This document shows, piece after piece, positions 12,980 through 55,659 of a stretch of 64,000 nucleotides of DNA. A program made the position numbers and the translations under genes. Source of the stretch: Tetrapyrgos nigripes (lineage: Eukaryota > Basidiomycota > Agaricomycetes > Agaricales > Campanellaceae). The stretch is taken from positions 62,001 through 126,000 of the forward strand of contig JAACJM010000071.1 of assembly GCA_013368315.1 (NCBI GenBank), given 5' to 3'. A model generated the notes under the pieces. It did not search any database, was not told where the DNA came from, and saw only the letters and a program-made list of their open reading frames with translations. How positions within the stretch are numbered: the first letter of the stretch is position 1; the number at the start of each line of letters is the position of its first letter.

Positions 12980-13132
12980 GTCGAGGATTGGGAAGGAAAA
13001 TTTTTCATGTTTATCCTGCTGGTTGCGTGTTGCGACTCGCAATTTTGTTTTTTGCGACTCTTGAGCACGGCATTTCCATTCTGGGGTTGTCTCTCCTTTA
13101 GGAAAGCGTGATGTGACACCTTTCCTGAGCAC

Positions 13133-22363: not shown

Positions 22364-22462
22364 CGACGTTTTGCAGGCAGAAAACGCAGAGAAATGACTT
22401 GCTAAGCGCCTTCTAAAATGTGTGATACCATTTTTCGAAATAATCGACTGGCGTCACATCAG

Positions 22463-22680
22463 ATTTGTGTTGGATGGCGACGGAATCACCACTGTCAGTG
22501 TGAAGGACCATTTCGCGATCAGCGTCATGAAAACAGTCGGTGGGGACAGTGGCGTTGGAGTGGATTTGTGTTGGATGATGCTGACGGAATCACCACTGTC
22601 AGTGCGGAAGACCATTTCGCGGTCAGTGTCACGGAAACAGTCGGTGGGGACAATGGCGTCGGAGTCAATTTGGCTTGGGA
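22463..22680. repeat. tandem duplication, two units of about 105 bp
   Basis: GTGTTGGATG … GACGGAATCACCACTGTCAG … CATTTCGCG … AACAGTCGGTGGGGAC occurs twice in direct tandem with scattered mismatches. No coding role is evident. Confidence 0.8.
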
Positions 22681-24278: not shown

Positions 24279-27200
24279 ATGGCTGTAAGCTTTTCAAGAT
24301 ATTTCCTGATATTTCTTCTCACTCTTTTCTTTTTCCTTTATTAGGGGGGAACCTGTTCACATTGTGGAAGGCAGAATCTCAAGAACCTGAAGAAACACCA
24401 TAGTTCCTGCTCAGCATATGAAACTCATAGAAGCAAAACTATCAAGGGATCACTTCAATTTAATCAGCAAATGCAGGTAGTCACTATTCAGTTTTTTTTT
24501 TTTTTTGAGAAATAATGCTCATTGGGATCAGGCATCTGCATCTGGAACAACAGATTCTCCAATGGATGTTGACATTGAGGTAAATGTACTTCAGATTATA
24601 CAGTTTAAATCTGATCTAATTTTAACAATTAGCAACAACATGATGTACCAGGAGCAGTAACAACAGAAGATTTTATGTTAGATTCCCAGGTATTGCTAAT
24701 TTATATATGAGTCATCAAAAGGAATTCTGACACTTTGTGTGATTTAGAATGATCAAACTGCTATGCAAATTGATGAGCAGCCTCATACCCCTCCAGGCCC
24801 TCAGATACCTATTCAGGTACAATATTTTTAATTGGTTGATATCACCTACTTATGCTTTTTATAGCCTGATTATTTTCAGACTCCGGACCCCAATGAAAAT
24901 TTGCCACCCAGAACAAGAGCTCCTCCAAAGGTGCTTGAAGATTTCGGCATGGTACAGTCTATACCCCTCATCAAAAAAGTCCGAACAAAGCCCACTGCAG
25001 CCAGAACACCAAGTCCTAATCTCTTTGGATCCTCTCCCCTCTCCTCTCCTCCAGATTCTCCTCCTGCAGAACCAAAGCCCCTTCCTGCCCTCTTTCAGAC
25101 TGATCCAGATCAGTTTGGACTGTTCCGAGTCTATGATAAATCACCTAGTCATGATCCATTGGAAAACATCAATCTACAGGATCTTACAGACTTTCATATT
25201 CCAGGTGGCTCCAGTGATACAGATAACAGAAATCCTTTTTCTGGATTTGGCCCTAACGTCAATATCTCTTCTATTTCCAATCCAGACATCCTTTCCAAAG
25301 GGCCTTTCCGAAATACTAGTGTTTTTCGTCTCATGAAATGGCATCATGATGCTATGAAAAGAAAAGCACTGGGAAACTTGGACTCTTTGGTCACAAATGT
25401 CATTCTAGCCAAGGATTTTCAGCAGAAGGATTTCCATGGGTTTAATGGACAAAGGGAAGCTCATCGTATGGATCAGTATATGAAGGCTCAGGAACAGGCA
25501 GCAAAGGAGACTTTGTTACCGTGGAATGCTGCAGATGGTTGGACCAAAAGCTCTGTTTCACTTAAGCTTCCCAGAGCTAGATGGTCTTGAGAGAGAGAGG
25601 AAGATATTCCTACAATGAAAGTGGACAATGTTTGGCATAGAGATGTACAGGAGGTCATCAAGGCAGCATGGCAGAGTGACCAGGCTTGGAACTATCACCA
25701 TAAACCATTCAAGCTGATGTGGAAGCCCTCTGAAGATCAGCCTGCTGTTCGTATTTTTGGAGAAACCTTTTGGAGTGATCGGATGATTGAAATGGATAGG
25801 AAGCTGCCAGAGATCCCTGCTGGATGTGGACTGGAGAGAATAGTAGTCCCTGTGCAACTCTGGTCAGACTCAACTCATTTGACAACTTTTGGAACTCAGA
25901 AGATGTGGCCAATTTATATGTTTATTGGTAATCTCTCAAAGTATACTCGTGGACGCCCAAGCACTTTTTCAGCTCATCATATTGCATATGTGCCTGAGGT
26001 ATGCAATTTCTTTCAATATATGCAATTCCTAATAATTATCTCTTGTGTCAGCTTCCAGACAAGATTGAGGATTTCTACCATAGTCTATTCAATAGCCAAC
26101 ATCCTTCCAACAACGAAAAAACTCATTTACGAAGGGAGCTTCTTCATGCTGTTCTTGCTTTGATTTTCAATCCGACATTTCGCCAAGCATATTTAGAAGG
26201 AATTGTGGTTTTATGTGTGGATCAGATAATGAGAAGGCTTTTTCCCAGGCTGTTTTCCTATTCTGTTGATTATGTTGAAAAGTAAGCAGAGATTTATCTT
26301 CTTCTTGGTTGATCAACTATCTAATTATCCTTTATCTAAATATAGAGTGATGTTGGCAGCAATGATGTTTCTATCGGAATATCCTTGCACTGCTTGTATG
26401 ATTCTGAAGAGGCAGATAAAGTATGTTGGAACAAAGGTTGACCTAGAGAGGATAGTGAAGAAGCCAAGAGTAGATGATGATGTTAGGCAGGGGAGAGTTA
26501 TAACTGCCAGAAAGTTGATTTTCCATGATGGATGTGCTGTCAGAAGTGATAGAGTCTTGGCTCTTTTGAAAAATGGCTCATATATTCCCACACTGGTAAG
26601 GAACTTTGTAATTGTTCCAGTATTTATAACTTACTGTTTGCAGAGTCAACTATCTGTTTTTTTACAGGATGTTGGTGAAAATATGTTTGACCTTTTCCCA
26701 ACTGACATTCTGCATGACTTTGAGCTGGGGAAATGGAGAGATGTTTTTACACACCTCTGCCGGATCTTGCAATCTATTGGACATGAAAAACTGAGTGAAC
26801 TGAACCAGAGGTGAATATATGTGAATTTATACTTGATTATAAAGTTTTCTAATACCCTATTAGATACCGCAATATGCCTAGCTTTGGCCAGGGCACTATT
26901 CGCTACTTCAAAAGTAATGTCTCTGATATGAGACACTTTGCTGCCAGAAACTTTGAAGATTTACTACAGGTTAGCCATTTTGAGTCTTTTAGGCTAAGCT
27001 CTAACTTCATTGTTTTGTCTTAGCTTGCTCTTCCAGCTTTTGAGAATCTCATAAGTGATAAACAGCAAGAGACAATTGTTCAGAATCTGCTGTTTGACCT
27101 TATGACTTTCCATGCTCATGCAAAGCTCCGAATTCAGACAGAAGATACCTTGAAATCATTCAGACTGGCTACTCAGTCTCTGGGTCAATCTCTGCAACAG

Positions 27201-31522: not shown

Positions 31523-32515
31523 ATGGCGTCTCCAGGGCGTACCATTACTGCTGCTAGTCCACTTAGGCCTGGTGTCTCTTCTATGAACCCTCATGTACCC
31601 ATGCTTACTCTGGAAGAAGCTACTTCGGATGGACACGAACGGGATACTGACAGTGCTGTTTCGACGCCGGCAAGAAGACGTCCTCGTCCAGTGTCTGAGC
31701 AGATGTTGGGGCATAGCAGACCTCAACCTGTTTAGGATGAGGATGGTGAAGGTATGTGTTTCGTTACTTATAAAGTTTGTCACTATACTAAAACAAATCG
31801 CAGGTGTCATTTCTATTCTATCTGCTGCGACTAACGATCTCGCCCAACTCATCAACCACTTGGATTTGGAGGTGACACCTGGCACCACTCCCGGTACACT
31901 AAATATCTCTCCGTGGAGGCAGTAGATGTTCGCTGGTGCCGTTCCCCGTGTTCCCGATAATGATGAAAGCCCGACCAAGAAGACTTTGTGCAAGGACATC
32001 AGTTCCATCACTTCACTGCGACCTTACACCCAGTCTCAAAGTCCTACCAAACAGCCTTCATCCAAAGATCTTCTTGGTCAGCAGATTGCACCTTGGCCCA
32101 CACTCAACTCGATGTTCCCAAGAGACTCACCAAAGCCTTCACCACCAGTTGCATCATCGTCGGCACCAAGGACGCGTCCCAACCACAAGAGGACGTTATC
32201 ACCTCCAGCTCCCATGCTTGAGAACTCTCCTCCCATGATTCGTCCATTGCGTCCTGCCAAGTCAAGGTCAGGTATTGTCGCAATGAAATCTTTGGGTCCA
32301 CCACCATCTGAGGGCCTTCCGTCTATTGAACCCAAGCTCGATGCCGGTACTATCCGTGCTCCCTCAACGTTGACGTTTGGTTCTTGTACGTCCTCTCGAG
32401 GAGGTGATTCATCTATCAGTTCCATCGATGACACCAAGAACCGACCACCAGTCCCAGTTTTGCCTTCTGCATTTGGACATGCTAGGAACAGATCTTCGCT
32501 GCTTTCATCTCAATA
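31523..32515 (+). pseudogene. 5' half of a host gene split by the satellite element
   Basis: Begins MASPGRTITAASPLRPG. An intron (GTATGT…CGCAG, about 31,751-31,803) follows. The frame is otherwise continuous and Ser/Pro rich (SPTKQPSSKDLLGQQ, NHKRTLSPPAPMLENSPP, SRGGDSSISSIDDTKNRPPV) up to LLSSQY, where the 10.8-kb insertion begins. Two in-frame TAG codons (31733-31735 after PRPVSEQMLGHSRPQPV; 31923-31925 after NISPWRQ) interrupt it, so the gene was probably also damaged by point mutation. No domain recognised. The 3' half resumes at 43,352. Confidence 0.6.
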
Positions 32516-32934
32516 CACTGGAGGCAAATCCCTGTAAATCATCTGCCATACAGAGGTATTACAGTGACCTTACAACAAGTCATTCAATAAGTAATCCACC
32601 TTGTATTACAGAGGTATTACAGAGAGAAGAATTTTCCAGATCAATGCTGTAAGACTGCTGTAAGACAAGTTGTATTACAGGGAGATTTCAGAGGCCAAAT
32701 TCCTGTATATCCAGTGCCCTACATAGGGATTACAGGAAACTTACACCAAGCCATTCAACAAGTATTCTGCCTTAGATTACAGAAGTATTACAGAGAGAAG
32801 AAATTTTGGGAGCAATGCTGTAAGACTGCTGTAAGACAAGTTGGATTACAGGGAAATTTCAGAGTGACATGGTGTCACAGTAATACATTAGGTAATACAG
32901 CCAAGAAATACAGAAGTATTTCAGTGTGACAAAA
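32516..32934 (+). repeat. left terminal inverted repeat with subterminal ATTACAG motifs
   Basis: About 419 bp, matching the right end apart from two substitutions and an 11-bp indel (an extra TTCAACAAGTA-like segment on the left near 32,755). It contains about nine copies of (G)TATTACAG or GGATTACAG and two copies of a longer block with GACTGCTGTAAGACAAGTTG. Such clustered subterminal motifs are typical transposase-binding arrays of CACTA elements. Confidence 0.85.
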
Positions 32935-35900
32935 GTGCGCAGGTGGCGTCCAGAGTGCGGGCAGGTTGCGTCCAGGGTGCACGCAGGTTGCGTCCAGAGT
33001 GCGCGCAGGTTGCGTCCAGAGTGCGTGCAGGTTGTGTCCAGAGTGCGCCCAGGTTGCGTCCAGAGTGCGCGCAGGTTGCATCCAGGGTGCGTGCAGGTTG
33101 TGTCCAGAGTGCGCGCAGGTTGCGTCCAGGGTGCGTCCAGAGTGCGTGCAGGGTGCGTCCAGGGTGCGTGCAGGTTGTGTCCAGGGTGCGCGCAGGTTGC
33201 GCCCAGAGTGCACGCAGGTTGCGCCCAGAGTGCGCGCAGGTTGTGCCCAGAGTGCATGCAGGTTGCGTCCAGGGTGCGCGCAGGTTGCGTCCAGAGTGCA
33301 CGCAGGTTGCGTCCAGAGTGTGCGCAGGTTGCGTCCAGAGTGTGCGCAGGTTGCGTCCAGAGTGTGCGCAGGTTGCGCCCAGAGTGTGCGCAGGTTGCGT
33401 CCAGGGTGTGCGCAGGTTGCGTCCAGGGTGTGCGCAGGTTTTGCGCCCAGAGTGCGTGCAGGTTGCGCCCAGAGTGCGTGCAGGTTGCGTCCAGAGTGCG
33501 CGCAGGTTGCGTCCAGAGTGCGTGCAGGTTGTGTCCAGAGTGCGCCCAGGTTGCGTCCAGAGTGCGCGCAGGTTGCATCCAGGGTGCGTGCAGGTTGTGT
33601 CCAGAGTGCGCGCAGGTTGCGTCCAGGGTGCGTCCAGAGTGCGTGCAGGGTGTGTCCAGGGTGCGTGCAGGTTGTGTCCAGGGTGCGCGCAGGTTGCGCC
33701 CAGAGTGCACGCAGGTTGCGCCCAGAGTGCGCGCAGGTTGTGCCCAGAGTGCATGCAGGTTGCGTCCAGGGTGCGCGCAGGTTGCGTCCAGAGTGCACGC
33801 AGGTTGCGTCCAGAGTGTGCGCAGGTTGCGCCCAGAGTGTGCGCAGGTTGCGTCCAGGGTGTGCGCAGGTTGCGTCCAGGGTGTGCGCAGGTTGCGTCCA
33901 GGGTGTGCGCAGGTTGCGTCCAGGGTGCGTGCAGGTTGCGTCCAGGGCGCGCGCAGGTTGTGCCCAGAGTGCGCGCAGGTTGTGTCCAGAGTTTGCACAG
34001 GTTGCGTCCAGGGTGCGCGCAGGTTGTGTCCAGAGTGTGCGCAGGTTGCGTCCAGGGTGCGTGCAGGTTGTGTCCAGAGTGCGCGCAGGTTGCGTCCAGA
34101 GTGCACGCAGGTTGTGTCCAGAGTGCGCGCAGGTTGCGTCCAGGGTGCGTCCAGAGTGCGCGCAGGTTGCGTCCAGGGTGCGTGCAGGTTGTGTCCAGGG
34201 TGCGCGCAGGTTGCGCCCACAGTGCGCGCAGGTTGCGTCCAGAGTGCGTGCAGGTTGCGTCCAGGGTGTGCGCAGGTTGCGTCCAGGGTGTGTGCAGGTT
34301 GCGTCCAGGGTGCGCGCAGGTTGCGTCCAGAGTGCGCGCAGGTTGCGCCGAGAGGGCCCGCAGGGTGCATGCAGGTTGCAACCAGGGTGCATGCAGGTTG
34401 CGTCCAGATTGCGCACAGGTTGCGCCCAGAGTGTGCGCAGGTTGCGTCCAGGGTGTGCGCAGGTTTTGCGCCCAGAGTGCGTGCAGGTTGCGCCCAGAGT
34501 GCGTGCAGGTTGCATCCAGAGTGCGCGCAGGTTGCGTCCAGAGTGCGCGCAGGTTGCGTCCAGGGTGTGCGCAGGTTGCGTCCAGGGTGCGCGCAGGTTG
34601 CGTCCAGAGTGTGCGCAGGTTGCGTCCAGAGTGCGCGCAGGTTGCATCCAGGGTGCGTGCAGGTTGCGTCCAGAGTGCGCGCAGGTTGCGCCCAGAGTGT
34701 GCGCAGGTTGCGTCCAGGGTGCGCGCAGGTTGCGTCCAGGGTGTGCGCAGGTTGCGTCCAGGGTGTGCGCAGGTTGCGTCCAGGGTGTGTGCAGGTTGCG
34801 TCCAGGGTGTGTGCAGGTTGCGTCCAGAGTGCGTGCAGGTTGCGTCCAGGGTGCGCCCAGAGTGCGCGCAGGTTGCATCCAGGGTGCGCGCAGGTTGCGT
34901 CCAGAGTGCGCGCAGGTTGCATCCAGAGTGCGTGCAGGTTGCGTCCAGGGTGTGCGCAGGTTGCATCCAGAGTGCACGCAGGTTGCGTCCAGGGTGTGCG
35001 CAGGTTGCGTCCAGAGTGCGCGCAGGTTGCGTCCAGAGTGCGCGCAGGTTGCGTCCAGGGGTGCGCGCGCAGGTTGCGTCCAGGGTGCGCGCAGGTTGCG
35101 TCCAGGGTGCGCGCAGGTTGCGTCCAGGGTGCGCGCAGGTTGCGTCCAGGGTGCGCGCAGGTTGCGTCCAGGGTGCGCGCAGGTTGCGTCCAGGGTGCGC
35201 GCAGGTTGCGTCCAGGGTGCGCGCAGGTTGCGTCCAGGGTGCGCGCAGGTTGCGTCCAGGGTGCGCGCAGGTTGCGTCCAGGGTGCGCGCAGGTTGCGTC
35301 CAGGGTGCGCGCAGGTTGCGCCCAGAGTGCATGCAGGTTGCGTCCAGAGTGCGCGCAGGTTGCATCCAGAGTGTGCGCAGGTTGCGTCCAGAGTGCGTGC
35401 AGGTTGCGCCCAGAGTGCGTGCAGGTTGCGTCCAGAGTGCGTGCAGGTTGCGTCCAGGGTGCGCGCAGGTTGCGTCCAGGGTGCGTGCAGGTTGCGCCCA
35501 GAGTGCGTGCAGGTTGCGTCCAGAGTGCGTGCAGGTTGTGTCCAGAGTGCGCCCAGAATGCGTGCAGGTTGCGTCCAGAGTGCGTCCAGGGTGCGTGCAG
35601 GTTGTGTCCAGAATGTGCGCAGGTTGTGTCCAGAGTGTGCGCAGGTTGCGTCCAGAGTGCGTGCAGGTTGCGTCCAGAGTGCACGCAGGTTGCGTCCAGA
35701 GTGCGCGCAGGTTGCGTCCAGGTTGCGTCCAGGGTGCGCCCAGAATGCATGCAGGTTGCGTCCAGAGTGCGCACAGGTTGCGTCCAGGGTGCGTGCAGGT
35801 TGCGTCCAGAGTGCGCGCAGGTTGTGTCCAGAGTGCACGCAGGTTGGCCCAGAGTGTGCGCAGGTTGCGTCCAGGGTGCGCGCAGGTTGCGTCCAGGGTG

Positions 35901-38900
35901 TGCGCAGGTTGCGTCCAGGGTGTGTGCAGGTTGCGTCCAGAGTGCGCGCAGGTTGCGTCCAGGGTGCGCCCAGAGTGCGCGCAGGTTGCGTCCAGAGTGC
36001 GCGCAGGTTGCATCCAGAGTGCGCGCAGGTTGCGTCCAGGGTGGGTGCAGGTTGCACCCAGAGTGCGTGCAGGTTGCGTCCAGGGTGTGAGCAGGTTGCG
36101 CCCAGAGTGCGTGCAGGTTGCGTCCAGGGTGTGCGCAGGTTGCATCCAGGGTGCGCGCAGGTTGCGTCCAGAGTGCGTGCAGGTTGCGTCCAGAGTGCGC
36201 GCAGGTTGTGTCCAGAGTGCGCGCAGGTTGCGCCCAGATTACATGCAGGTTGCGTCCAGGGTGTGCGTCCAGAGTGCGCGCAGGTTGCGTCCAGGGTGCG
36301 CCCAGAGTGCGCGCAGGTTGCGTCCAGGGTGCGCCCAGAGTGCACGCAGGTTGCGTCCAGGGTGCGCGCACGTTGCGTCCAGAGTGCGTGCAGGTTGTGT
36401 CCAGAGTGCGCGCAGGGTGTGTCCAGAGTGCGCGCAGGTTGCGTCCAGGGTGTCCAGGGTGCGCGCAGGTTGCGTCCAGGGTGTGCGCAGGTTGCGCCCA
36501 GAGTGCGTGCAGGTTGCGTCCAGGGTGTGCGCAGGTTGCGTCCAGGGTGCACGCAGGTTGCGTCCAGAGTGTGCGCAGGTTGCGTCCAGAGTGCGCGCAG
36601 GTTGCGTCCAGGGTGCGTGCAGGTTGCGTCCAGAGTGCGCGCAGGTTGCGCCCAGAGTGTGCGCAGGTTGCGTCCAGGGTGCGCGCAGGTTGCGTCCAGG
36701 GTGTGCGCAGGTTGCGCCCAGAGTGCGTGCAGGTTGCGTCCAGGGTGTGTGCAGGTTGCGTCCAGGGTGTGTGCAGGTTGCGTCCAGAGTGCGCGCAGGT
36801 TGCGTCCAGGGTGCGCCCAGAGTGCGCGCAGGTTGCATCCAGGGTGCGCGCAGGTTGTGCCCAGAGTGTGCGCAGGTTGCGTCCAGAGTGCGCGCAGGTT
36901 GCGTCCAGGGTGTGCGCAGGTTGCGTCCAGGGTGCACGCAGGTTGCGCCCAGAATGCATGCAGGTTGCGTCCAGAGTGTGCGCAGGTTGCGTCCAGAGTG
37001 CGCGCAGGTTGCGTCCAGAGTGCGCGCAGGTTGCGTCCAGGGTGCATGCAGGTTGCGCCCAGAGTGCGCGCAGGTTGCGCCCACAGTGCGCGCAGGTTGC
37101 ACCCACAGTGCGCGCAGGTTGCGTCCAGAGTGCGCGCAGGTTGCGTCCAGGGTGTGCGCAGGTTGCGTCCAGGGTGCGCGCAGGTTGCGTCCAGAGTGCG
37201 CGCAGGTTGCGCCGAGAGGGCCCGCAGGGTGCATGCAGGTTGCAACCAGGGTGCACGCAGGTTGCGTCCAGATTGCGGGCAGGTTGCGCCCAGAGTGTGC
37301 GCAGGTTGCGTCCAGGGTGCGCGCAGGTTGCGTCCAGAGTGCGCGCAGGTTGTGTCCAGAGTGCGCGCAGGGTGCGTCCAGAGTGCGCGCAGGTTGCGTC
37401 CAGGGTGTCCAGGGTGCGCGCAGGTTGTGTCCAGAGTGCGCGCAGGTTGTGTCCAGAGTGTGCGCAGGGTGCGTCCAGAGTGCGCGCAGGTTGCGTCCAG
37501 GGTGCGCGCAGGTTAGGTTGCGTCCAGAGTGTGTGCAGGTTGCGTCCAGAGTGCGCACAGGTTGTGTCCAGAGTGTGCGCAGGGTGCGTCCAGAGTGCAC
37601 GCAGGTTGCGTCCAGGGTGCGCGCAGGTTAGGTTGCGTCCAGAGTGTGTGCAGGTTGCGTCCAGAGTGCGCGCAGGTTGCGTCCAGGGTGCGTGCAGGTT
37701 GTGCCCAGAGTGCGTGCAGGTTGCGTCCAGAGTGCGCGCAGGTTGCGTCCAGGTTGCGTCCAGGGTGCGCCCAGGGTGCGCCCAGAGTGCGTGCAGGTTG
37801 CGTCCAGAGTGTGCGCAGGTTGTGTCCAGAGTGCGCACAGGTTGCGTCCAGGGTGCGCGCAGGTTGCGTCCAGGGTGTGCGCAGGTTGCGTCCAGGGTGT
37901 GTGCAGGTTGCGTCCAGAGTGCGTGCAGGTTGCATCCAGGGTGCACCCAGAGTGCGCGCAGGTTGTGTCCAGGGTGCGCCCAGAGTGCGCGCAGGTTGCG
38001 TCCCGAGTGCGTGCAGGTTGCGTCCAGAGTGCGCGCAGGTTGCGTCCAGGTTGCGTCCAGGGTGCGCCCAGAGTGCGCGCAGGTTGCGTCCAGAGTGCGC
38101 GCAGGTTGCGTCCAGAGTGCGCGCAGGTTGTGTCCAGAGTGCGCGCAGGTTGCATCCAGAGTGCGCGCAGGTTGCGTCTAGAGTGCGTGCAGGTTGCGTC
38201 CAGGGTGCGCGCAGGTTGCGTCCAGGGTGCGCGCAGGTTGCGCCCAGAGTGCGCGCAGGTTGCGTCCAGGGTGCGTGCAGGTTGCGCCCAGAGTGCACGC
38301 AGGTTGTGTCCAGGGTGTGCGCAGGTTGCGTCCAGAGTGCGCGCAGGTTGCGTCCAGAGTGCGCGCAGGTTGCATCCAGGGTGCGCACAGGTTGCGCCCA
38401 GAGTGCGCGCAGGTTGCGTCCAGGGTGCGCGCAGGTTGTGTCCAGAGTGTGCCCAGGTTGCGTCCAGGGTGCAACCTGCGCGCACTCGGGACGCAACCTG
38501 CGCCCACTCTGGACACAACCTGCGTGCACTCTGGATGCAACCTGCACGCACCCTGGGCGCACCCTGGACGCAACCTGGGCGCACTCTGGACGCAACCTGC
38601 GTGCACTCTGGGCGCAACCTGCGCGCAATCTGGGTGCAACCTGCGCGCACTCTGGACGCAACCTGCGTGCAGGTTGCGTACAGGGTGTGCGCAGGTTGCG
38701 TCCAGAGTGCGCGCAGGTTGGGTCCAGGGTGCGCCCAGAGTGCGCCCAGGTTGCGTCCAGGGTGCGCGCAGGTTGCGTCCAGAGTGCGCCCAGGTTGCGT
38801 CCAGGGTGCGCGCAGGTTGCGCCCAGAGTGCATGCAGGTTGCGTCCAGGGTGCGCGCAGGTTGCGCCCAGAGTGCATGCAGGTTGCGTCCAGGGTGCGCG

Positions 38901-41900
38901 CAGGTTGTGTCCAGAGTGCGCGCAGGTTGCGTCCAGAGTGCGCACAGGTTGCGTCCAGAGTGCGCGCAGGTTGCGTCCAGGGTGCGTGCAGGTTGCGCCC
39001 AGAGTGCGTGCAGGTTGCGCCCAGAGTGCATGCAGGTTGCGTCCAGAGTGCGTGCAGGTTGCGTCCAGAGTGCGCGCAGGTTGTGTCCAGGGTGCGCCCA
39101 GAGTGCGCGCAGGTTGCGTGCAGGTTGCGTCCAGGGTGCGCGCAGGTTGCGTCCAGGGTGTGCGCAGGTTGCGTCCAGGGTGCACGCAGGTTGTGTCCAG
39201 GGTGCATGCAGGTTGCGTCCAGAGTGCGCGCAGGTTGCGTCCAGGGTGCATGCAGGTTGCGTCCAGGGTGCGCCCACAGTGCGCGCAGGTTGCGTCCAGG
39301 GTGCGCCCAGAGTGCGCGCAGGTTGCGTCCAGGGTGCGCCCAGAGTGCGCGCAGGTTGCGTCCAGGGTGCGTCCAGGGTGTGCCCAGAGTGTGCGCAGGT
39401 TGCGTCCAGGGTGTGCACAGGTTGCGTCCAGGGTGCGCACAGGTTGCGCCCAGAGTGCGCGCAGGTTGCGTCCAGAGTGCGCGCAGGGTGCGTCCAGAGT
39501 GCGCGCAGGGTGCGTCCAGAGTGCGCGCAGGTTGCATCCAGGGTGCGTGCAGGTTGCGTCCAGAGTGCGCGCAGGTTGCGTCCCGCGCACTCTGGACGCA
39601 ACTTGCGCGCACTCTGGACACAACCTGCGTGCACTCTGGATGCAACCTGCACGCACCCTGGGCGCAACCTGCGCGCACCCTGGACGCAACCTGGGCGCAC
39701 TCTGGATGCAACCTGCGTGCACTCTGGGCGCAACCTGCACGCAATCTGGGCGCAACCTGCGCGCAATCTGGGTGCAACCTGCGCGCAATCTGGGCGCAAC
39801 CTGCGCGCACTCTGGACGCAACCTGCGTGCACTCTGGGCGCAACCTGCGCGCACCCTGGATGCAACCTGCGCGCACTCTGGACGCAACCTGCGCACACCC
39901 TGGGCGCAACCTGCGTGCACTCTGGGCGCAACCTGCGCGCACTCTGGGCGCAACCTGCGTGCATTCTGGGCGCAACCTGCGCGCACTCTGGACGCAACCT
40001 GCACGCACTCTGGGCGCAACCTGCGCACACCCTGGACGCAACCTGCGCAGACTCTGGGCGCAACCTGGACGCACTCTGGACGCAACCTGCGCGCACTCTG
40101 GACGCAACCTGCGCGCACTCTGGACGCAACCTGCGCGCACTCTGGACGCAACCTGCGCGCACTCTGGATGCAACCTGCGCGCACTCTGGACGCAACCTGC
40201 GCGCACTCTGGACGCAACCTGCGCGCACTCTGGACGCAACCTGGACCCAACCTGCGCGCACTCTGGACCCAACCTGCGCACACCCTGGACGCAACCTGCA
40301 CGCACTCTGGACGCAACCTGCATGCACTCTGGGCGCAACCTGCACGCACTCTGGGCGCAACCTGCATGCACTCTGGGCGCAACCTGCATGCACCCTGGAC
40401 GCAACCTGCACGCACTCTGGGCGCAACCTGCACGCACCCTGGACGCAACCTGCGCGCACTCTGGACACAACCTGCGCGCACTCTGGACGCAACCTGCGCG
40501 CACCCTGGACGCAACCTGCATGCACTCTGGGCGCAACCTGCACGCACCCTGGACGCAACCTGCGCGCACCCTGGACGCAACCTGCGCGCACTCTGGACGC
40601 AACCTGCATGCACCCTGGACGCAACCTGCGCGCACTCTGGACGCAACCTGCATGCACCCTGGACGCAACCTGCGTGCACCCTGGACGCAACCTGCGCGCA
40701 CCCTGGACGCAACCTGCACGCACCCTGGACGCAACCTGCGTGCACTCTGGGCGCAACCTGCACGCACTCTGGACGCAACCTGCGCACACTCTGGACGCAA
40801 CCTGCGCGCACTCTGGAAGCAACCTGCGCGCACTCTGGACGCAACCTGCGCGCACTCTGGACGCACTCTGGGCGCAACCTGCACGCACTCTGGACGCAAC
40901 CTGCGCACACTCTGGACGCAACCTGTGCGCACTCTGGACGCAACCTGCATGCACTCTGGACGCAACCTGCGCACACCCTGGATGCAACCTGCGCGCACTC
41001 TGGACGCAACCTGCGCGCACTCTGGACGCAACCTGCACGCACTCTGGACGCAACCTGCACGCACTCTGGACGCAACCTGCACGCACTCTGGACGCAACCT
41101 GCGTGCACTCTGGGCGCAACCTGCGCGCACTCTGGACGCAACCTGCACGCACTCTGGGCGCAACCTGCGCACACCCTGGACGCAACCTGGACGCACTCTG
41201 GACGCAACCTGCGCGCACTCTGGACGCAACCTGCGCGCACTCTGGACGCAACCTGCGCGCACTCTGGGCGCACCCTGGACCCAACCTGCGCGCACTCTGG
41301 ACCCAACCTGCGCACACCCTGGACGCAACCTGCACGCACTCTGGACGCAACCTACGTGCACTCTGGGCGCAACCTGCACGCACTCTGGGCGCAACCTGCA
41401 CGCACTCTGGGCGCAACCTGCATGCACCCTGGACGCAACCTGCACGCACCCTGGATGCAACCTGCGCACACTCTGGGCGCAACCTGCACGCACTCTGGAC
41501 GCAACCTGCGCACACTCTGGACGCAACCTGCACGCACTCTGGAAGCAACCTGCGCGCACTCTGGACGCAACCTGCGCGCACTCTGGACGCACTCTGGGCG
41601 CAACCTGCACGCACTCTGGACGCAACCTGCGCGCACTCTGGACGCAACCTGCGCGCACTCTGGACGCAACCTGCGCACACTCTGGACGCAACCTGTGCAC
41701 ACTCTGGACGCAACCTGCATGCACTCTGGACGCAACCTGCGCACACCCTGGATGCAACCTGCGCGCACTCTGGACGCAACCTGCGCGCACTCTGGACGCA
41801 ACCTGCACGCACTCTGGACGCAACCTGCGCGCACTCTGGACGCAACCTGCGTGCACTCTGGGCGCAACCTGCGCGCACTCTGGACGCAACCTGCACGCAC

Positions 41901-42943
41901 TCTGGGCGCAACCTGCGCACACCCTGGACGCAACCTGCGCACACTCTGGGCGCAACCTGGACGCACTCTGGACGCAACCTGCGCGCACTCTGGACGCAAC
42001 CTGCGCGCACTCTGGACGCAACCTGTGCGCACTCTGGGCGCACCCTGGACCCAACCTGCGCGCACTCTGGACCCAACCTGCGCACACCCTGGACGCAACC
42101 TGCACGCACTCTGGACGCAACCTGCATGCACTCTGGGCGCAACCTGCACGCACTCTGGGCGCAACCTGCACGCACTCTGGGCGCAACCTGCATGCAACCT
42201 GGACGCAACCTGCACGCACCCTGGATGCAACCTGCGCGCACTCTGGACGCAACCTGCGCGCACTCTGGACGCAACCTGCGCGCACCCTGGACGCAACCTG
42301 CATGCACTCTGGGCGCAACCTGCGCGCACCCTGGACGCAACCTGCGCGCACTCTGGACGCAACCTGCATGCACCCTGGACGCAACCTGCGCGCACTCTGG
42401 ACGCAACCTGCATGCACCCTGGACGCAACCTGCGCGCACCCTGGACGCAACCTGCACGCACCCTGGACGCAACCTGCGCGCACCCTGGACGCAACCTGCG
42501 TGCACTCTGGGCGCAACCTGCACGCACTCTGGACGCAACCTGCGTGCACTCTGGAAGCAACCTGCGCACACTCTGGACGCAACCTGCGCGCACTCTGGAC
42601 GCACTCTGGGCGCAACCTGCACGCCCTCTGGACGCAACCTGCGCGCACTCTGGACGCAACCTGCACGCACCCTGGACGCAACCTGCGTGCACTCTGGACG
42701 CACCCTGGACACAACCTGCACGCACTCTGGACACAACCTGCACGCACCCTGGATGCAACCTGCGCGCACTCTGGACGCAACCTGCGCGCACTCTGGACGC
42801 AACCTGCACGCACTCTGGACGCAACCTGCGCGCACTCTGGACGCAACCTGCGCACACTCTGGACGCAACCTGTGCGCACTCTGGACGCAACCTGCGTGCA
42901 CCCTGGACGCAACCTGCCCGCACTCTGGACGCCACCTGCGCAC
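32935..42943. repeat. 22-bp satellite array in inverted arms, about 450 units
   Basis: The unit core is GCAGGTTGCGTCCAG followed by a GTGCGC-like variable part, 22 bp in total. Orientation is forward from 32,935 to about 38,470, inverted to about 38,668, forward to about 39,583 and inverted to 42,943. The variation is mostly CG to TG/CA. Because 22 is not a multiple of three and the unit lacks stop triplets, all six frames stay open for kilobases; these are not genes. Confidence 0.95.
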
Positions 42944-43351
42944 TTTTGTCACACTGAAATACTTCTGTATTTCTTGGCTGTATTACCTAATGTATTACTG
43001 TGACACCATGTCACTCTGAAATTTCCCTGTAATCCAACTTGTCTTACAGCAGTCTTACAGCATTGCTCCCAAAATTTCTTCTCTCTGTAATACTTCTGTA
43101 ATCCAAGGCAGAATGGCTTGGTGTAAGTTTGCTGTAATCCCTATGTAGGGCACTGGATATACAGGGATTTGGCCTCTGAAATCTCCCTGTAATACAACTT
43201 GTCTTACAGCAGTCTTACAGCATTGATCTGGAAAATTCTTCTCTCTGTAATACCTCTGTAATACAAGGTGGATTACTTATTGAATGACTTGTTGTAAGGT
43301 CACTGTAATACCTCTGTATGGCAGATGATTTACAGGGATTTGCCTCCAGTG
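42944..43351 (-). repeat. right terminal inverted repeat
   Basis: About 408 bp, the reverse complement of the left end. The match continues into the first satellite units, including the odd junction unit GTGCGCAGGTGGCGTCCAG, showing both arms derive from one sequence by inversion-duplication. Confidence 0.85.
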
Positions 43352-44275
43352 ATACAACAGCAACGACAACAACAACACTACTAGCCGTTCTCTCGTACCT
43401 GGAGCCAGGAGGATGCTCGGGATGAAGGGAACAATGGGAGGTTCTGATGTCTCAGCCTATGCTGTTGACGAATTGGATGCATCAGATCCTGAGTCAGACA
43501 TTCCTGATGAGCTGCAGAACATTTGGGCAAAGCGTCACAAAGACGACACCCTCTTATCGTCCTTCCAGTCCTTGTTCTGCGTCTCCCGAAGATGTTCCTC
43601 AGGACGTCTCTGAGATGGACTCTCTCAGTGATCCTCAGCCCTTGGACATACCCATGTTCCATCTCACTGACGTCAACAAGAATCAAATTGACATGGACAA
43701 TATTGATATGGACGATTTTCACTCTGACGAAGACGGCGACACCAAGAAATCCTTCGACTTCACCGGCAAACTGAAGTTGAACGAGTCCGGCGCCTCAGAC
43801 CGACAAAGCTTCATGGAACAGTTGGAGAATGCATTCCGTACCCCTGCGAAACTCGACCTTTGTTATGACTTTGGAGATTCTGATAGTGGTATGCTGAGTG
43901 TTGAAGTGCCCCCGCTTCCACCTTTGCCTTTGCTACCTGCTCAAGCGGAAACGTCGTCCAGCACTATCCAGACAGATCTCTCTACAACCTCACATGAGGC
44001 AGTCGCTCAGCTCAATTCGCTTCTGGTCAACGCTTACATGCAAGTAAGTAACACAATTTTTAACGCTGAGTTACTACCTACCTTTCCTAACCAGCTTCTT
44101 AGGGCGCCATCGTCACCGTCGCCGTCTGCTTCTCAACTGCGCCGTCGCCATCTGCTTCTCAACCGCGCCATCATCACCGTCGCCGTCTGCTTCTCAACCG
44201 CGCCATCGTCACCGTCGCCATCTGCTTCTCAACCGCGCCATCGTCACCGTCGCTGCCCGCTTCCGAGTCAATGAT
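43352..44275 (+). pseudogene. 3' half of the host gene split by the satellite element
   Basis: Directly after the ATA repeat, the frame that left 32,512 continues as SNDNNNTTSRSLVPGARR, MLGMKGTMGGSDVSAYAVDE and LDASDPESDIPDELQNIWAK. Around 43,540-43,560 the good frame shifts by one base to YRPSSPCSASPEDVPQD, followed by DVNKNQIDMDNIDMDDFHSD and SFMEQLENAFRTPAKLDL. A final intron (GTAAGT…AACCAG, about 44,043-44,092) leads to a repeat-rich end. The frameshift adds to the two TAG codons upstream, so the gene is best called a pseudogene. Acidic and Ser-rich; no domain recognised. Confidence 0.6.
44105..44270. repeat. about 35-bp tandem repeat, five copies
   Basis: The unit GCGCCATCGTCACCGTCGCC plus GTCTGCTTCTCAACC repeats five times with one shortened copy (about 26 bp) and a divergent last copy. 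It lies at the 3' end of the split host gene. Confidence 0.8.
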
Positions 44276-46084: not shown

Positions 46085-49000
46085 CTACCAAACAGACGCG
46101 GCAGCTCCAGTTCCTCGTTGTCCAAACGACTCAATCGCGTGCCACAATGCCTCTCCACCATCCCTATTCTTCTCCCTCTCAAGTCCCCTACCAACCCCAG
46201 AAAGTAATCTGCCTAACGTATCCGGTTCACCACCATATCCATTACCATAATAACTCTGACCACCATTCCTAGAAGGCTCATTCCCCCTAACAATCTTTTC
46301 CAACGAGTCCAACGCCAACAAGAACACATCCTGCTCTGACTCTGGTTCAGTATTTCTTCGATCCTGACGACCATAGCCAGGAGAACGAGCTGAGGCAGCA
46401 GACGGTGCCCAAGTAGCGTAGTCACCCGACCCAGATCCAGACTTCGAGCCCGAGGCTGAACCGGAATGCGCCTGCGCATGTGTATTCCAATCAAATGTAG
46501 GTTGAGATGACCATGACCGAGAATCAGGTTCAACGGGTTGACTGAATCCACCAGGTAACCAGATATCATTAGACTCTTGCCTAGGTCTACTTTGGGGTTG
46601 CGGTGTAGGTATCCAACGCTCGGGCCCTTGTCTTTGCCCTTGTGACTGACTGGGAGTCATGCTACGTGCATACGAATCCTGACTAGAGGACGCCATGACC
46701 TGATTCCACACACTATAGCTATCGTCTTCTTGCTGTTGTTTCTGTTTTTGTTTTCCGGAAGCACCAGAACCCCTCTCTACCGCACGACGGCTATGACTAC
46801 CGGACCCGGACTCCATATCCATATCCATATCCATATCCGACCCCTCCTCTGCAGGTTGCATAATATACCTCGAATCCGACGGAAGACGCTCAATGCCATC
46901 GGGAACTGGGTCTTCTCCTTCGTCATCTGATACTTCCTCAATCGTCACTTTCTTCTTTTTCGAGCCTTTAACTGTTTTGGATTTGGATGAACCAGGTTTC
47001 TTCAGGATGCTGGAAGAACCAGTAGAGGAAGGTTGACTCGTCGCTGGCTCCGGCTTTTTACCTGCTGCTTTTGATGTGGGGGACTTGGCAGATGAGCTGG
47101 GAGGAGGAGGACCGGTAGGCAGAGGGACTCGGTCAATGACAGTCACCGGGCTGTTGGCAGCGGGAGGGAATTCAGAGAGAAGAAGAGATCGATGTCGAGT
47201 TAGTTCTTTGGTCACTTACAAGGTGCAAGATGATGAAGAGCTTACCCTTGCATATCTTCTGTCACCGAGAGGATTTCGTCACGGGATGACTGTTGTTCTG
47301 TCAAGAACTGCGCGACGTCAGTTCAGATACATAAAAGAGTTGGGACAGATCAGCAAACCAACCTCGAGTGCGGTAGATCCAAGCGCATCATCTGTCGGAA
47401 GAGGAGTAGAGTGGCATACCAAGCATACTTCACCAGATATGAGGGCACATTCTCTGATCACAGAAGTAAGCGTAATTTCTTCCTTTGAGTATCTGCTGCA
47501 TCGATGATGTGTCGTCCCGGGTGCTCTTGTCGCTTTAAGTTTTCTGAGGCTAGAACGAGTTGGTTGGGATATACGGATGTTATTCCGGAACTGCCTGGCA
47601 ACTAGTGCAAGGGTCGACCTTTGCGAGGATCGTTTCCACTGCACCTCTCTTCTGGGGGCCATGGGTACTGGCTCTGCAGGAGAGCCGAGAGGTTGTTGAG
47701 AACCAGAACGAGAGTGGCGGGGTGCTGGACTTGATTCCTCGATAGTATCCGTAGTCATGTCATCTTCAACGATTACTGAGGCCCCGAATAATGAGGACTC
47801 TTGTCCTTCCTTGTCTATAATGGCTGAAGGTCAGTCAAACTCGACTTTCTGAGATTAAAAGCAGCACTATTCACTGTACAGTAGTCGGTTTGCATCCTCA
47901 AATAACTGGTATATTCTCGTTAGTACAGTGCATGTGGATGAATGAGCAGCTCACCTTGGTACAAAGATCGTTGAACAGTTCCCAATCAGCTACAGCATCC
48001 TTGCTTCCGCTTTCAAATTTGCAGCTGCCGAGTCCAACCTTCACTTGATCACCTTTAGTGATATATACTTCGAAATTCTGTTGCAAAGCTCCCAATTATA
48101 TATTGATTCACACGCAATGGGAAGTCAACACTTACCTCTTTGCCAATTGCGCCGAGAGATACACCGACGACAGTCGAAAGATAGTCCAAGCCGGCCTGTA
48201 TATATACGTCACTGTCAGACTCTCACATTTATAGGCACCACAGGCGTTCAAACCATACTGAAAGTCCGCCAACCTGGGAGGACGGATGACAATAAGTCAA
48301 TGTTTATTAGGCGTGAGCGGTGTAATGCATTACTCACAAGCTGGAATCCCAATTGCAAAATACGTGGAATACCTTCTGTGAGAGCAGAGGCCACACAGTA
48401 GTCAACAGGACCCCTTTCACAATCTTCCTAAAGGATCGGCTATTTGAACCAACATAGGCGTTGATTGGCTTACCATCACCGTAAACGATAAATGGCGATT
48501 GAGATGCAAAAGAAGAACACGCCGTCATCCGCAGCATGGAAGGATGTCTGTCTCAACCACTAGAATCGCATCCCTACAAAACCTAGAGGAAGGACTTACA
48601 GCAGGCCCTCACTGAAAGCAACTGCAGCCTTATGATGCTAAATGAGTAGATAGCATAAGTATTTCATCAAGTTGAGGTGAAAATCTGTACACACTTCCTT
48701 GGCCCGCGACCCATGAAAAACTTTCACTAAAACAGCAACCCCTTTGTGCTTTCCTGAATGGACTCGGTAGTGCCCTCCGTCAAAAAGCTCGTCCAAAGTT
48801 TCAACATTTTCTCGACTAGTTATTTCCTACACAATACAGCTCGGTTGATAGCAAGATTAAGGAGTTATGGTGAACATACAATCGACGGTGAGCCTCTACC
48901 GCCAGTTGCCAACCTCGCAATGCCTTGAAAGCTCGTCCATACTATGTCGGAAATGGAACTGCAAGCCTTCATTCTCCAGCCATTCGGGTCCTCTAGGATC

Positions 49001-49125
49001 TGGTAATAGTGGTGGTTGTGAGTTTCGTGTAAGTTTCCCGCAACAGTGGTGATTTTGTTGTGAGATAAACTTGAAGATGATAGGTGGGCGAATGAGCTGA
49101 TCGTTGTGTCCAGTGGGGATGCCAT
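46085..49125 (-). CDS. kinase-like protein joined to a Ser/Gly-rich disordered tail, copy B
   Basis: Start ATG at 49125-49123 (MASPLDTTISSF). The head repeats the exon layout of copy A shifted by about 2.18 kb in sequence offset, including VKVFHGSRAKE, NFEVYITKGDQVKVGLGSC and HHRCSRYSKEEITLT. The shared exon VTVIDRV then leads, instead of zinc fingers, into PLPTGPPPPSSSAKSP, a basic SKKKKVTIEEVSDDEGED, an MDMDMDMD repeat, Gln/Ser-rich sequence and an ordered-looking end (DVFLLALDSLEKIVRGNE, DTLGRLLSGVGRGLEREK), stopping at 46085. The tail frame is open for over 1 kb with no stop, so this fusion looks intact, apart from the same unresolved exon 4/5 phase as copy A. The tail may be another gene's 3' exon captured by the duplication. 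Confidence 0.6.
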
Positions 49126-50869
49126 TAAAAGAGCCAACCGGCGACGAGATGGGTTTTCCAAGTTTTTCCGAGTCTAGTGCGCTTTGTCAGTCAGTGGTAT
49201 TATTGAATTGATGGTCGTTCTCCGGGTTTGTTTGTCGAGTTCGAGGTACTTTATGATTCGGAAAGTGCAAGGTGATCAAGGACTCGAAGGAGAACCTATT
49301 CGGTGGAAAACAGGCGACCTAAGTACAGCAACTTACGTCTCTGTTCCCACACGAGCGCACCGCCACTGTATCGAGGCTTCTGAGGGCTCTGGGCGATATA
49401 AGTAGTGCCGTTTCCTCACTGGAAAAAGGCTTTGCGAATTGTAAATAAGTAATTTGCACACCATTTACACGCTGAGAAGAAAACTTGATTGCACAGTGCA
49501 TATCGGACCGAAAGCCTACGTGCCCGACGAGGCTCAGGTTGGTTTGGGATCGAGCGCTAGAACTTGAAGAACACATCTGTATCGTTTTTTAATGAGATTT
49601 CTACGTTCCAGGAGATTTGCGCTCTTATAGAAGGGGTACAGCTCATTATTGAAAGAACGATTGGAGAAAGACTCGATTGGCGTTGTTTTTTTATGACAGC
49701 AGTTTTCGGACAAAAATGTAATTGCTAGGTTACGTCAGTCGTGAGTTGAAAGTCGTAAGTTGTATTAGCTCCTGATAAATGCGTGGTCTGGTCCCGACAG
49801 ATACCAAATGTTCCTCGTAATGCCAAACCTGCATATGTCAAAGCTCACGTTGATGTAAGTCAGCTCTCAGATTGGTCTCTTTCAAAGTTGTATGCCTGCT
49901 TAGTCTATGGCATAGTCCGCGCGGCTTATTAGCACTGATACCTGACATCTGCAATCCGGACCTTCCCCCAGCCATAGACCGTAGCTCTGCACCAGCGGGA
50001 TCTCTATATTGGGCAGTTTCTTGAGACACAATGGTGCGGTCGCGCATCTCCGAGTCCATACCATGAGTCGCGATCGTGCAACCCCTGTCCCCATTTACTT
50101 TCTCACGCATCCCGACCCAGCGCCATCGGCCCTCCTCCTGGTGAAATTTCATTTCGTTCTTCCTCCTCCTCATCTTATTTATATCGAGTAGAAGAGGCAA
50201 TGGCTCTCAATCTTTATGACTCCAGTTGACTTGCCATGGCACCATTAAGTCTTACATGTCCATGAAGTAAAAAATCAAAGAAAACGAGGATATTTACGCG
50301 TAAAAACGCGGCCGACAGGAGATCAGTCCATTTGCGGAATGGCTGAGAAGCGCGCTGGCAGCTAAAAAAAGGCGCGGCATGTATATCGACAGTGCCGGTT
50401 TCATCCTATCCTATACTATCCTACAAGATATTATCTTTGAGTTACCATCAGCTCAACCTAGGTCTCTAACCATGTCATTCCCTAGACCTCACTCACTCTT
50501 GAATACCACTGATAGTCATTAGTGACAACGAAGATATAAATGACAACCACCTCAATTTCTGATTGAAGTCCTGCAAACCTTACACCTAACCAAGAGACCT
50601 TAAGATTCGCTGGCTTCGAGCATTGACTTTCGCGCAACAGACATTCATATTTCGTGCGTAACATTACTGATCCTCGGCAAAATTCGCCGTTCGTCGTGAA
50701 AACCACTCTCACGCAATTTAACATGCGCTAAGGCAATTGAAAATACTCATTTTGTCCGAGAAGTGGCTTCATATTTTTTCTACAGCAGCGCTGGTAAAGC
50801 CCGTGGACAAGCTACTTAACGTTAGGGGTAAAAGTAAAGTACGGTGGGAAAAAATAACTCCCCTCACAG
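49126..50869. other. divergent promoter region with 1.09 kb absent from copy A
   Basis: The outer parts match copy A's 6,961-7,606. About 49,685-50,770 is present only here; its ends share TTTTTT and ACAGCAG with the single junction in copy A. No gene recognised inside; short minus-strand frames lack motifs. Confidence 0.6.
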
Positions 50870-52377
50870 ATGTCCAAAGCCACTTCCTCAGTCCACGACG
50901 TCACCCAACAAAACCCCCCGTTTGGCTCCAGATTCCTCATAAACGAATCCGACGTCTGGTCTCACAACGCCTGGGACCATGTCCCCCCTCCAAAAGACCA
51001 AGATCACATCATCGCCTCCTCCCTCTCAAAACAACGCCAATCCCCCATCCCACTCCTCGATCACCCCAAATACAACTCCAAACCCTCTAAGCACTGGGAC
51101 AATTTTTACAAATCAAACTCGGGCAATTTTTTTCGAGATCGAAAATGGTTACATCAGGAATTTCCTCAACTTGTAGATGCTGCACAACCAAATGCGGGGC
51201 CTATAAAAATCGCAGAAATTGGATGTGGGGCAGGGAATTCGGTGTTTCCTTTACTTGCTGCGAATAAGAATCCTCAATTGAGTTTATACGCGTATGATTA
51301 CTCTAATCATGCTGTTAAAGTCGTTCAAAATCACCCACTGTACCTCGACCCCCCGCTTGGCACTCTCCATGCTTCAGTCTGGGACCTTACCTCCCCTGAT
51401 ACACTTCCAGACGGTCTGGAACCAGGATCTGTCGATATTATCATTCTGGTGTTTGTATTCAGCGCTTTACATCCTGATGAATGGGGTAGGGCGGTGAGGA
51501 ATGTACACAAGGTGTGTTTCTTTGTATTTGACGTGTTTTTCCCCTTCTTACCACCATCTAGCTCCTACGCCCTACCACCGGCCTCCTTCTATTTCGCGAC
51601 TACGGCCGATACGACCTCACTCAACTCCGATTTAAAGGCGGAAGAATGCTCAGTGATAATTTTTATATTAGGGGCGATAAGACTAGGGTTTATTTTTTCG
51701 AGTTGGGTGAGTAGCCTTTGCCTTTGGTTCTCTTTACTAAATATTCCAAACACCATACAGACGAACTCTCCCTCCTCTTCACCGGAAAACGTATCAACCC
51801 CGAAAAGGATGGAGTGACTGTGACTGATACGACTAAAGTAGAGGATGAAGATCGGACCGAGGAGACGCAAAATGGCGAAAAGAACGAGAACGACGATACG
51901 CCTACTGCTTCTGGTTCTGTGACTCCACATCCAGATGCAGAATCTTTGGCCATGACCTCGGGTTCGGGTTCGGGTTCTTCCTTACCTTCGTCGTCATCTA
52001 ACCCATCTAACCCATCACCCAACGATTCCGAACCACCCAGCGAACCCAGCGAACCCAGTGAACCCATCAGTACCACTACCATTACCATCCACCCTAACCT
52101 CCTCTCCCCAACTTTCCCCTGGGGTCCGTTCCCCCCTTCCCCGTCCCAACCCTCGGGGCCTGACGCAGACGCAGACGCACACTCAAACTCAGCCCATGGT
52201 GCCTCAGATCCAGCCCACGTCCACGACTCAGACTCAGACTCAGGCCCAGGTGACGGTCATGGTCATGGTCTATTCACCACCTCCACTCTAGGCATCGACC
52301 GCCGTCTCATCGTAAATCGGAAGAGACAGTTGAAGATGTATAGGGTTTGGATGCAGGGGGTGTTTCGGAAGGTTTAG
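50870..52377 (+). CDS. TRM140: tRNA N3-methylcytidine methyltransferase, Trm140/METTL2 family, copy B
   Basis: Exons 50870-51511, 51562-51706 and 51761-52377 give about 467 residues, nearly identical to copy A. Differences seen by eye include FLI for FLT near residue 24, one fewer Gly-Ser pair, a Val-to-Ala change nearby, and synonymous changes. SAM motif, IRGD motif and the [15 protein letters not shown] end are all intact, so both copies could be expressed. The last exon and 3' flank share bases with copy C at 57.6 kb that copy A lacks, so this copy is a mosaic. Confidence 0.92.
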
Positions 52378-52971
52378 TGTTTACTAGTGTTTAGTGGAAG
52401 TTTTCATGAGAGGGTGGTGTACAGATAGAGATAGAGATAGAGGTAGAGATAAAAGTGTGTTGTGTTATTACTGTAACGTTAACTATACGAGGTGTTACGA
52501 GGTGGTCGCCAATTCCTCCGTCCCGAGCATCCTGAAGATCAGATATCTAATGTCACTCAGGCTACAAACGTCGTTGGGCAACCCCCTCACGCTGGTCAAC
52601 AACTTCAACTTTTGGGCTCTGCTGGTTAGGAATGGCTTCAACAACTCAGTCTGGAGTGTGGATTCCCGCTTCACTTGAGAATTCCCTCATGTTTTTGAAC
52701 ATTTTGGATGACGTGGTGCCTGTTCCTGCGGTGACAGAGTGTTTCTCCAGCGTCAGAGATCTTTTCTCGTCACTTAAGGTCCAGGATGGTCAGTATGGTC
52801 ACTACGAAGAGACCCCAGGCTTCTTGTTCTGACGCGTTGAGCGATAGCTGTTAGTATACGTCGCAGTGCTCACTGTTCTCCCAGCTGACCACTGGGGGTC
52901 GTTGGCAGCCCAAGTTTCCCCAAAGTGGTTCGTTGGCGCGCGAGAGAGAGAGGTGCGAGCCGAAGGCGAGC

Positions 52972-55519: not shown

Positions 55520-55659
55520 GCTAAGAAGAACAAAATTACTGCATAACAATGGAGGTGCATCAAAAAAGACAGGTGGATACAAGCTGGGCTTGAAGTGATG
55601 GAGTCTGGTGTCAGGCGACAGCCAGGTCGTCACTCGATGAGGGTCAGGTGGAGGGGGCT

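Follow-up and report, generated by a model that had tools for sequence, protein, structure and literature searches.

A gene-less element with an inverted 22-bp satellite core, probably a non-autonomous CACTA/EnSpm transposon, in the fungus Tetrapyrgos nigripes

Fold-back DNA transposons and DNA transposons bearing satellite arrays are already published, plant CACTA elements among them, and satellite- or repeat-bearing cases have been reviewed (PMC9659126). Fungal EnSpm elements with TET have CAC..GTG ends and a 3-bp target-site duplication (TSD), PlavakaA has TGT..ACA ends and a 2-bp TSD, PlavakaB has CATCA..TGATG ends and a TSD of 2-3 bp, and the TSDs of Kyakuja and Zisupton measure 7 and 8 bp, respectively (PMC12730594). 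The Jozin CACTA element of Chenopodium is 16,523 bp long and carries near its 3' end a 5,550-bp array of 171-bp units (PMC8978399). In Tetris, a fold-back element of Drosophila virilis, the repeat number differs between allelic copies (PMC4079207). Here we analyze a 64,000-nucleotide stretch of the basidiomycete Tetrapyrgos nigripes (assembly GCA_013368315.1, contig JAACJM010000071.1, positions 62,001 to 126,000; hereafter the window) and describe an element at window positions 32516-43351. The element is very probably a non-autonomous CACTA/EnSpm DNA transposon with a satellite core, mobilized by a tnp2 transposase like that of a gene-bearing copy on another contig.

The window sits on contig C71 of the genome assembly that was searched, which comprises 98 Mb in 587 contigs. 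The element is a single insertion of 10,836 bp. Its termini are CACTGGAGGC (at 32516) and GCCTCCAGTG (at 43351), and it begins with CACTGGAGGCAAATCCCTGTA and closes with the reverse complement of CACTGGAGGCAAATCCCTGTA. A copy of the trinucleotide ATA flanks each side, at 32513..32515 and at 43352..43354; both copies are read directly from the sequence and agree with the single ATA at empty sites. The left terminal inverted repeat (TIR), delimited by sequence comparison and end search, starts with CACTGGAGGCAAATCCCTGTA, spans 421 bp (32516..32936, plus strand) and includes two tandem 171-bp copies (32521..32864, plus strand). The right TIR (42942..43351, minus strand) lacks 11 bp present in the left one, through a single deletion, and measures 410 bp. 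An alignment of the first 425 bp of each side has 414 aligned columns, of which 3 differ. The 26-mer at the end of the element, allowing up to 3 mismatches, occurs twice in the window, in inverted orientation, and never in 100 shuffles. The 421-bp TIR contains 13 TTACAG/CTGTAA hexamers, as compared with a mean of 0.44 and a maximum of 4 in shuffled sequences (n = 2,000). These hexamers, which stand in direct and inverted orientation, are candidate subterminal repeats for transposase binding.

The TIRs enclose a core made of a 22-bp unit with the consensus GCGCAGGTTGCGTCCAGAGTGC, which occupies 32937-42941. The core is sequentially composed of a plus-strand array (32937..38474), a short inverted block of approximate limits (38475..38666, minus strand), the resumed plus-strand array (38667..39583), and a minus-strand array (39584..42941). 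The two arms of the array thus measure 6,647 bp (plus, to 39583) and 3,358 bp (minus). The CACTG ends, the ATA duplication and the inverted repeats of about 410 bp around some 10 kb of inverted satellite, all claimed in the original prediction from the sequence of the window, are borne out.

The same prediction called the element a giant palindrome. Ten 110-bp blocks of the array arms were compared in register and set against 60 random registers. The first block is 96% identical between the arms, higher than all 60 random registers. Blocks 2 and 3 are 88% and 85% identical, above the random mean and inside the random range, and the remaining seven blocks (74-88%) all fall inside the random range. 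Past the TIR and the first 110 bp or so of the array, the arms hold the same satellite in inverted orientation without mirror-image sequence, and therefore do not form a mirror palindrome. At the sequence level, the element is not a giant palindrome but a satellite in inverted orientation, whose mirror identity is clear over about 0.53 kb per side; the earlier description as palindromic was overstated.

The satellite has a G+C content of 67% and contains only 1-2 stops per frame over 10 kb. Open frames in the element reach 1,828 amino acids, which is meaningless because the satellite is nearly stop-free; the claim that the element has no genes is upheld. Such frames are a practical hazard, since frames of more than 1,800 codons built from the 22-bp unit may be called by gene finders. 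A scan for bacterial promoters and terminators found nothing, a type of scan that is not meaningful for a fungus.

The element interrupts a host coding sequence, as had been predicted. The upstream part lies at 31926..32515 (plus strand), as defined by the list of open reading frames and by the homologues P0001 and P0002. The downstream part lies at 43355..43523 (plus strand) and is conserved to ...DELQNI, with P0001 and P0002 aligned across the junction. Predicted proteins homologous to the interrupted frame occur in Marasmius crinis-equi and Hygrophoropsis aurantiaca, at 56% and 44% identity, respectively. Both proteins align through the insertion point, with a short gap near the junction, and no Pfam family was found in either of them.

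Empty versions of the site are present in the same genome. Both flanks were joined into a 600-bp probe in which one ATA was kept, and all 8 candidate matches were scored. The probe matches six other places end to end, with 98-99% identity on C352, C13, and C32 and 91% identity on C273, C234, and C222. The filled locus aligns with the probe in two halves, with the ATA common to both. Empty sites with a single ATA, proposed earlier as a check on the insertion, thus exist in six instances. Counting the filled locus, the assembly contains seven copies of the target gene stretch (32216-32515 plus 43355-43654); of the other six, three match at 98-99% and three at 91%, a pattern suggestive of several haplotypes or of a gene region that is repeated.

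The element belongs to a multi-copy family. The 21-mer at the end of the element, with up to 3 mismatches, is found 142 times forward and 144 times in reverse across the genome (286 in total; 1 for the reversed control), and the first 100 of the 286 positions are listed. A search with the 421-bp TIR gave 42 matches among the best 40 of 473 candidates scored. Twenty complete copies were fetched from other loci, making 21 with the window copy. A perfect 3-bp TSD borders 19 of the 21, and the chance of at least 19 is about 1e-32. The duplicated sequences are ATA (window), TAG, CGT, TGG, TTA, TGA, ATA, ATA, CTT, GCA, TAA, TCA, ACT, GAA, TTT, TAG, TTA, AAT, and TTA. The junctions of five further long pairs of ends were also read; three have a perfect TSD (C34, TAT; C37, TAT; C80, TCA), bringing the total to 22 of 26. 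The other two, C170 and the outer pair on C22, were rejected as single elements for want of a common TSD, and a Transposase_21 match between the outer C22 ends (C22:405072) is therefore not counted. TSD-checked copies span 1.5 to 14.5 kb, or 17.3 kb with a nested gene, and the TIR, for which copies with other cargo lengths had been proposed as a check, stands at many loci around cargo of different lengths.

The empty-site test was run on 14 of the 20 further copies. For nine of these insertions (L062, L063, L065, L067, L069, L071, L074, L076, and L078), one or more places in the genome match end to end, with 90-99% identity. For the other five (L066, L068, L070, L075, and L080), the best 40 of 706 candidates, those that were scored, gave no such match, and this does not count as a negative result.

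The satellite follows the family. An exact 22-mer of the satellite occurs 878 times in the genome (547 + 331; control, 0). Among the first 100 of these units listed, 96 lie inside located pairs of arms, and the remaining 4 are on C27, 1.1-1.4 kb into an arm for which the listed ends include no partner. All 21 complete copies contain the satellite, in two architectures. In class A, represented by 14 of the 21 including the window copy, the array begins at about TIR position 421 and runs plus on the left and minus on the right. In class B, represented by six, the TIR runs about 270 bp further and the array is oriented opposite to that of class A. The remaining copy, L067, is a seventh, mixed member of class B. 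Genome-wide searches find 84 instances of the class A boundary and 50 of the boundary shared by class B and C34, a gene-bearing copy described below (controls, 0). These boundaries define 36 class A pairs, with lengths of about 1.5-17.3 kb and a median of 3.7 kb, and 18 class B/C34 pairs, with lengths of about 2.0-15.4 kb; a TSD was read for a minority of these pairs. The class A pairs include C170, which is without a TSD, and the largest of them is on C37 and contains a KDZ gene. In L070 (C133:42341-46204) and L075 (C209:37961-42103), pieces of the TIR or of its boundary lie within the satellite arrays.

One family member carries a transposase gene. C34:14467-29856 is 15,390 bp long, with identical 21-bp ends and a TAT duplication. 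The parts of it that were read are, on each side, bases 1-34 and the interval from 364 to about 564, and in the interior two samples at 21500-22500 and 24700-25600. On both sides, its TIR agrees with that of the satellite copies in the first 34 bp and from 364 to about 418. Past about 418, it continues on both sides as a longer inverted repeat, which is the sequence kept in class B. A Transposase_21 domain (tnp2, PF02992) is encoded at 24887-25273 (E = 7.8e-19). No satellite was found at either TIR boundary or in the two interior samples. Transposase_21 has 117 matches in the genome, of which 18 are on contigs with located pairs; the one in C34 is alone in lying inside a pair.

The C34 stretch 21500-22500 recurs at seven loci, with 83% and 78% identity on C97 and 68-69% identity at the six others. 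A Transposase_21 match accompanies the stretch at each of the seven, oriented relative to it as in C34 and spaced about 2 kb from it at six loci and about 11 kb on C97, as compared with 2.4 kb in C34. Since the stretch and Transposase_21 recur together, the two form one module. On C97, a perfect family end lies 26 kb away; none is present at the other six loci among the 100 of 286 ends listed. Judged from these sequence features, C34 is probably the autonomous partner of the satellite copies. Its ends, TSD, longer TIR and Transposase_21 domain are the grounds on which the family is called non-autonomous CACTA/EnSpm with a probable partner. The original assignment to the CACTA/CMC group, made from the ends and the length of the duplication, gains further support from this copy, from the subterminal repeats and from the varied 3-bp TSDs.

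The arrays themselves have changed in a duplicated locus. A duplicated stretch on C33 contains L077 and L079, which look like a single insertion within it. Between the two copies, 4 of 400 flanking bases differ. Over the alignment as a whole there are 17 gaps and a substitution difference of 5.5%, which is an upper guide because the repeat alignment may slip out of register. Five of the gaps measure 22 bp and two 11 bp; the others are of 90, 57, 40, 27, 10, 8, 7, 2, 1, and 1 bp. In this one locus, the arrays change faster than the flanks. With its different array lengths, the pair is a natural case for setting array change against flank change. With L077/L079 excluded, the longest exact stretch common to the interiors of two copies is 170 bp. 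Both this stretch and the second longest (135 bp) fall where the class B TIR is extended; arrays share no exact stretch longer than about 107 bp, and over all pairs the best match has a median of 54 bp. Left TIRs, by comparison, can be identical between different copies.

The arms of class A copies fall into types, as judged by eight diagnostic columns. Eight copies combine a beta and an alpha arm, three (the window copy, L069, and L071) have two alpha arms, two (L062 and L064) have a third type on both arms, and L078 stands apart. A one-base marker in the 36 class A pairs reads C/C in 16, C/T in 15, C/G in 3, and T/T in 2. The mean difference between left and right arms within a class A element is 1.67%, as compared with 1.72% between elements. 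Matching arms are therefore not the rule, and arm homogenization as a general rule was rejected, arms of one type being present in some copies only. Matching arms probably arise by occasional exchange.

Taken as a mechanism, the CACTA/EnSpm reading would run as follows. A tnp2-type transposase from a C34-like copy elsewhere would recognize the CACTG ends and the CTGTAA-rich subterminal repeats, and would move the satellite copies by a cut-and-paste reaction with a 3-bp staggered cut. Genes would have been lost, leaving a 22-bp satellite array in inverted halves between the TIRs. Traveling with the element and free of coding constraint, the array may grow, shrink and flip via slippage, unequal exchange or gap repair that is prone to error. 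Copies may sometimes recombine or convert one another so that both arms come to be of one type, as in the window copy. Several points weigh against this account. Only a single gene-bearing copy with a TSD is present among the 100 of 286 ends listed. The C34 transposase could be a nested insertion, C34 having been read in pieces; the lack of satellite where C34 was sampled counts against such nesting. A perfect TSD is missing from two of the 21 complete copies (L077 and L079) and from two of the five long pairs (C170 and the outer pair on C22). The array lengths are those of the assembly, and the divergence between the L077 and L079 arrays is an upper guide.

It is quite unlikely that another transposase, from Plavaka, KDZ, PIF/Harbinger or another CACTA lineage, moves the element and that C34 is an old relative or a nested case. 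Plavaka and KDZ are numerous in the genome, with 163 and 173 matches, respectively, and the pair on C37 contains a KDZ gene. Each of the two has 31 listed places on contigs with located pairs; none of those listed for Plavaka is inside a pair, and for KDZ the C37 match is alone in being so among the matches listed. C37 has class A satellite arms, and KDZ matches of near-equal score are found on other contigs, so its KDZ gene looks nested. KDZ was dropped as a partner on this judgment, no other located pair having a listed KDZ match. C37:383130-400388 is itself a class A satellite copy with the TSD TAT and an apparently nested KDZ transposase gene. Plavaka had been considered as a partner since CACTACTGGTGGCAATTC, near copies L050 and L051, resembled a CACTA end; it was dropped because the sequence is identical on both sides of CACTACTGGTGGCAATTC in L050 and L051, making CACTACTGGTGGCAATTC internal. 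Some Plavaka copies are near-identical to one another. PIF/Harbinger elements produce a 3-bp TSD of TWA type, and the duplications CGT, TGG, GCA, CTT, TCA, ACT, GAA, TTT, and AAT are outside this preference. The CACTG..CAGTG ends and 3-bp TSDs also differ from the ends and TSDs published for Plavaka, Kyakuja, and Zisupton (PMC12730594).

Two further alternatives concern the satellite. Arrays of a 22-bp unit beyond 10 kb are difficult to assemble, and the array length is as assembled; that the inverted array or the entire structure is an assembly artefact is nonetheless extremely improbable. The arms are unequal in length and different in sequence, unlike a folded or mirrored read, 20 more complete copies with the same TIRs and satellite occupy other loci, and the borders are fixed by empty sites and the TSD. 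The satellite might instead have pre-existed in the genome and been captured by the transposon family, perhaps repeatedly, rather than amplified inside the element. The opposite satellite orientations relative to the TIR and the different junctions of the two architectures could mean two captures. We consider capture improbable: all 100 listed units (of 878) are in or beside family members, and no free array is present among those listed. A possible, if rather unlikely, extension of the CACTA/EnSpm reading is that the satellite is mobile and self-amplifying, the inverted array being under selection as part of the element instead of inert filling. By folding back while gaps are repaired or DNA is replicated, the arms would then regenerate, lengthen and flip the array and rebuild matching arms, and the two architectures of opposite orientation would be independent outcomes of one process. 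If so, a gene-less CACTA derivative would have turned into a machine for the dispersal and growth of satellite DNA.

The rest of the window contains other features. A stretch with an open reading frame (ORF) for a methyltransferase domain is duplicated at 4936-9570 (ORF 7595-8554) and 47113-52832 (ORF 50858-51817) with 96-99% identity, and an additional partial copy is near 57621-58334. On the minus strand, 10610-13186 holds two neighboring open frames that encode HTH_Tnp_Tc5 and DDE_1 domains and look like a pogo/Tc5-type transposase in two frames. A 706-residue open frame at 53561-55681 (minus strand) has no Pfam match at 1e-3 and, by its motifs, looks like a Penelope-like reverse transcriptase.

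How satellite arrays originate, scatter and grow is an old question, mostly approached after the fact. A single genome with many copies of TSD-checked and varied length, a probable partner, empty sites, two orientations and a duplicated locus for weighing array change against flank change makes array growth in a transposon measurable and testable. The novelty first claimed for the element was overstated, as fold-back elements with repeats and CACTA elements with satellites have been published (PMC4079207, PMC3573991, PMC8978399). No fungal CACTA element of such make-up was found among the papers listed in searches of the open literature, judged by titles and the start of abstracts, Repbase and subscription papers being outside this scope.

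Several known systems share parts of the design. A minisatellite inside a non-autonomous inverted-repeat element is also found in a MITE of Porphyromonas gingivalis, a bacterium (PMC4596501). Galileo of Drosophila likewise has long TIRs with internal tandem repeats, recombinant or chimeric arms, and TIR extension; unlike the family described here, it belongs to the P superfamily, has a 7-bp TSD and a P-type transposase, and has its repeats, each about 210 bp long, inside the TIR (PMC3573991). Fold-back elements form a structural class and not a lineage, marked by long inverted repeats with internal repetition that account for most of the element, and the window element may belong to this class. 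Tetris, a member of it, resembles the window element in being non-autonomous and in tandem repeats that expand to satellite-like arrays. It differs in its TSD of 8-10 bp, its suggested placement in the Mutator superfamily, and its 220-bp repeats, and it is described with three structurally complete copies and without an autonomous partner having been found (PMC4079207). Jozin shares a kilobase-scale satellite array within a CACTA element. However, Jozin keeps its coding sequence and the array is an addition, whereas here the array of 22-bp units is the whole core and runs in two orientations (PMC8978399). The CACTA/EnSpm (CMC/CMCT) elements offer the CAC..GTG ends, the 3-bp TSD, the CTGTAA-rich subterminal repeats and the Transposase_21-type partner copy seen here; the satellite copies of T. 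nigripes depart from them in being gene-less, with an interior of 22-bp satellite in two orientations (PMC12730594).

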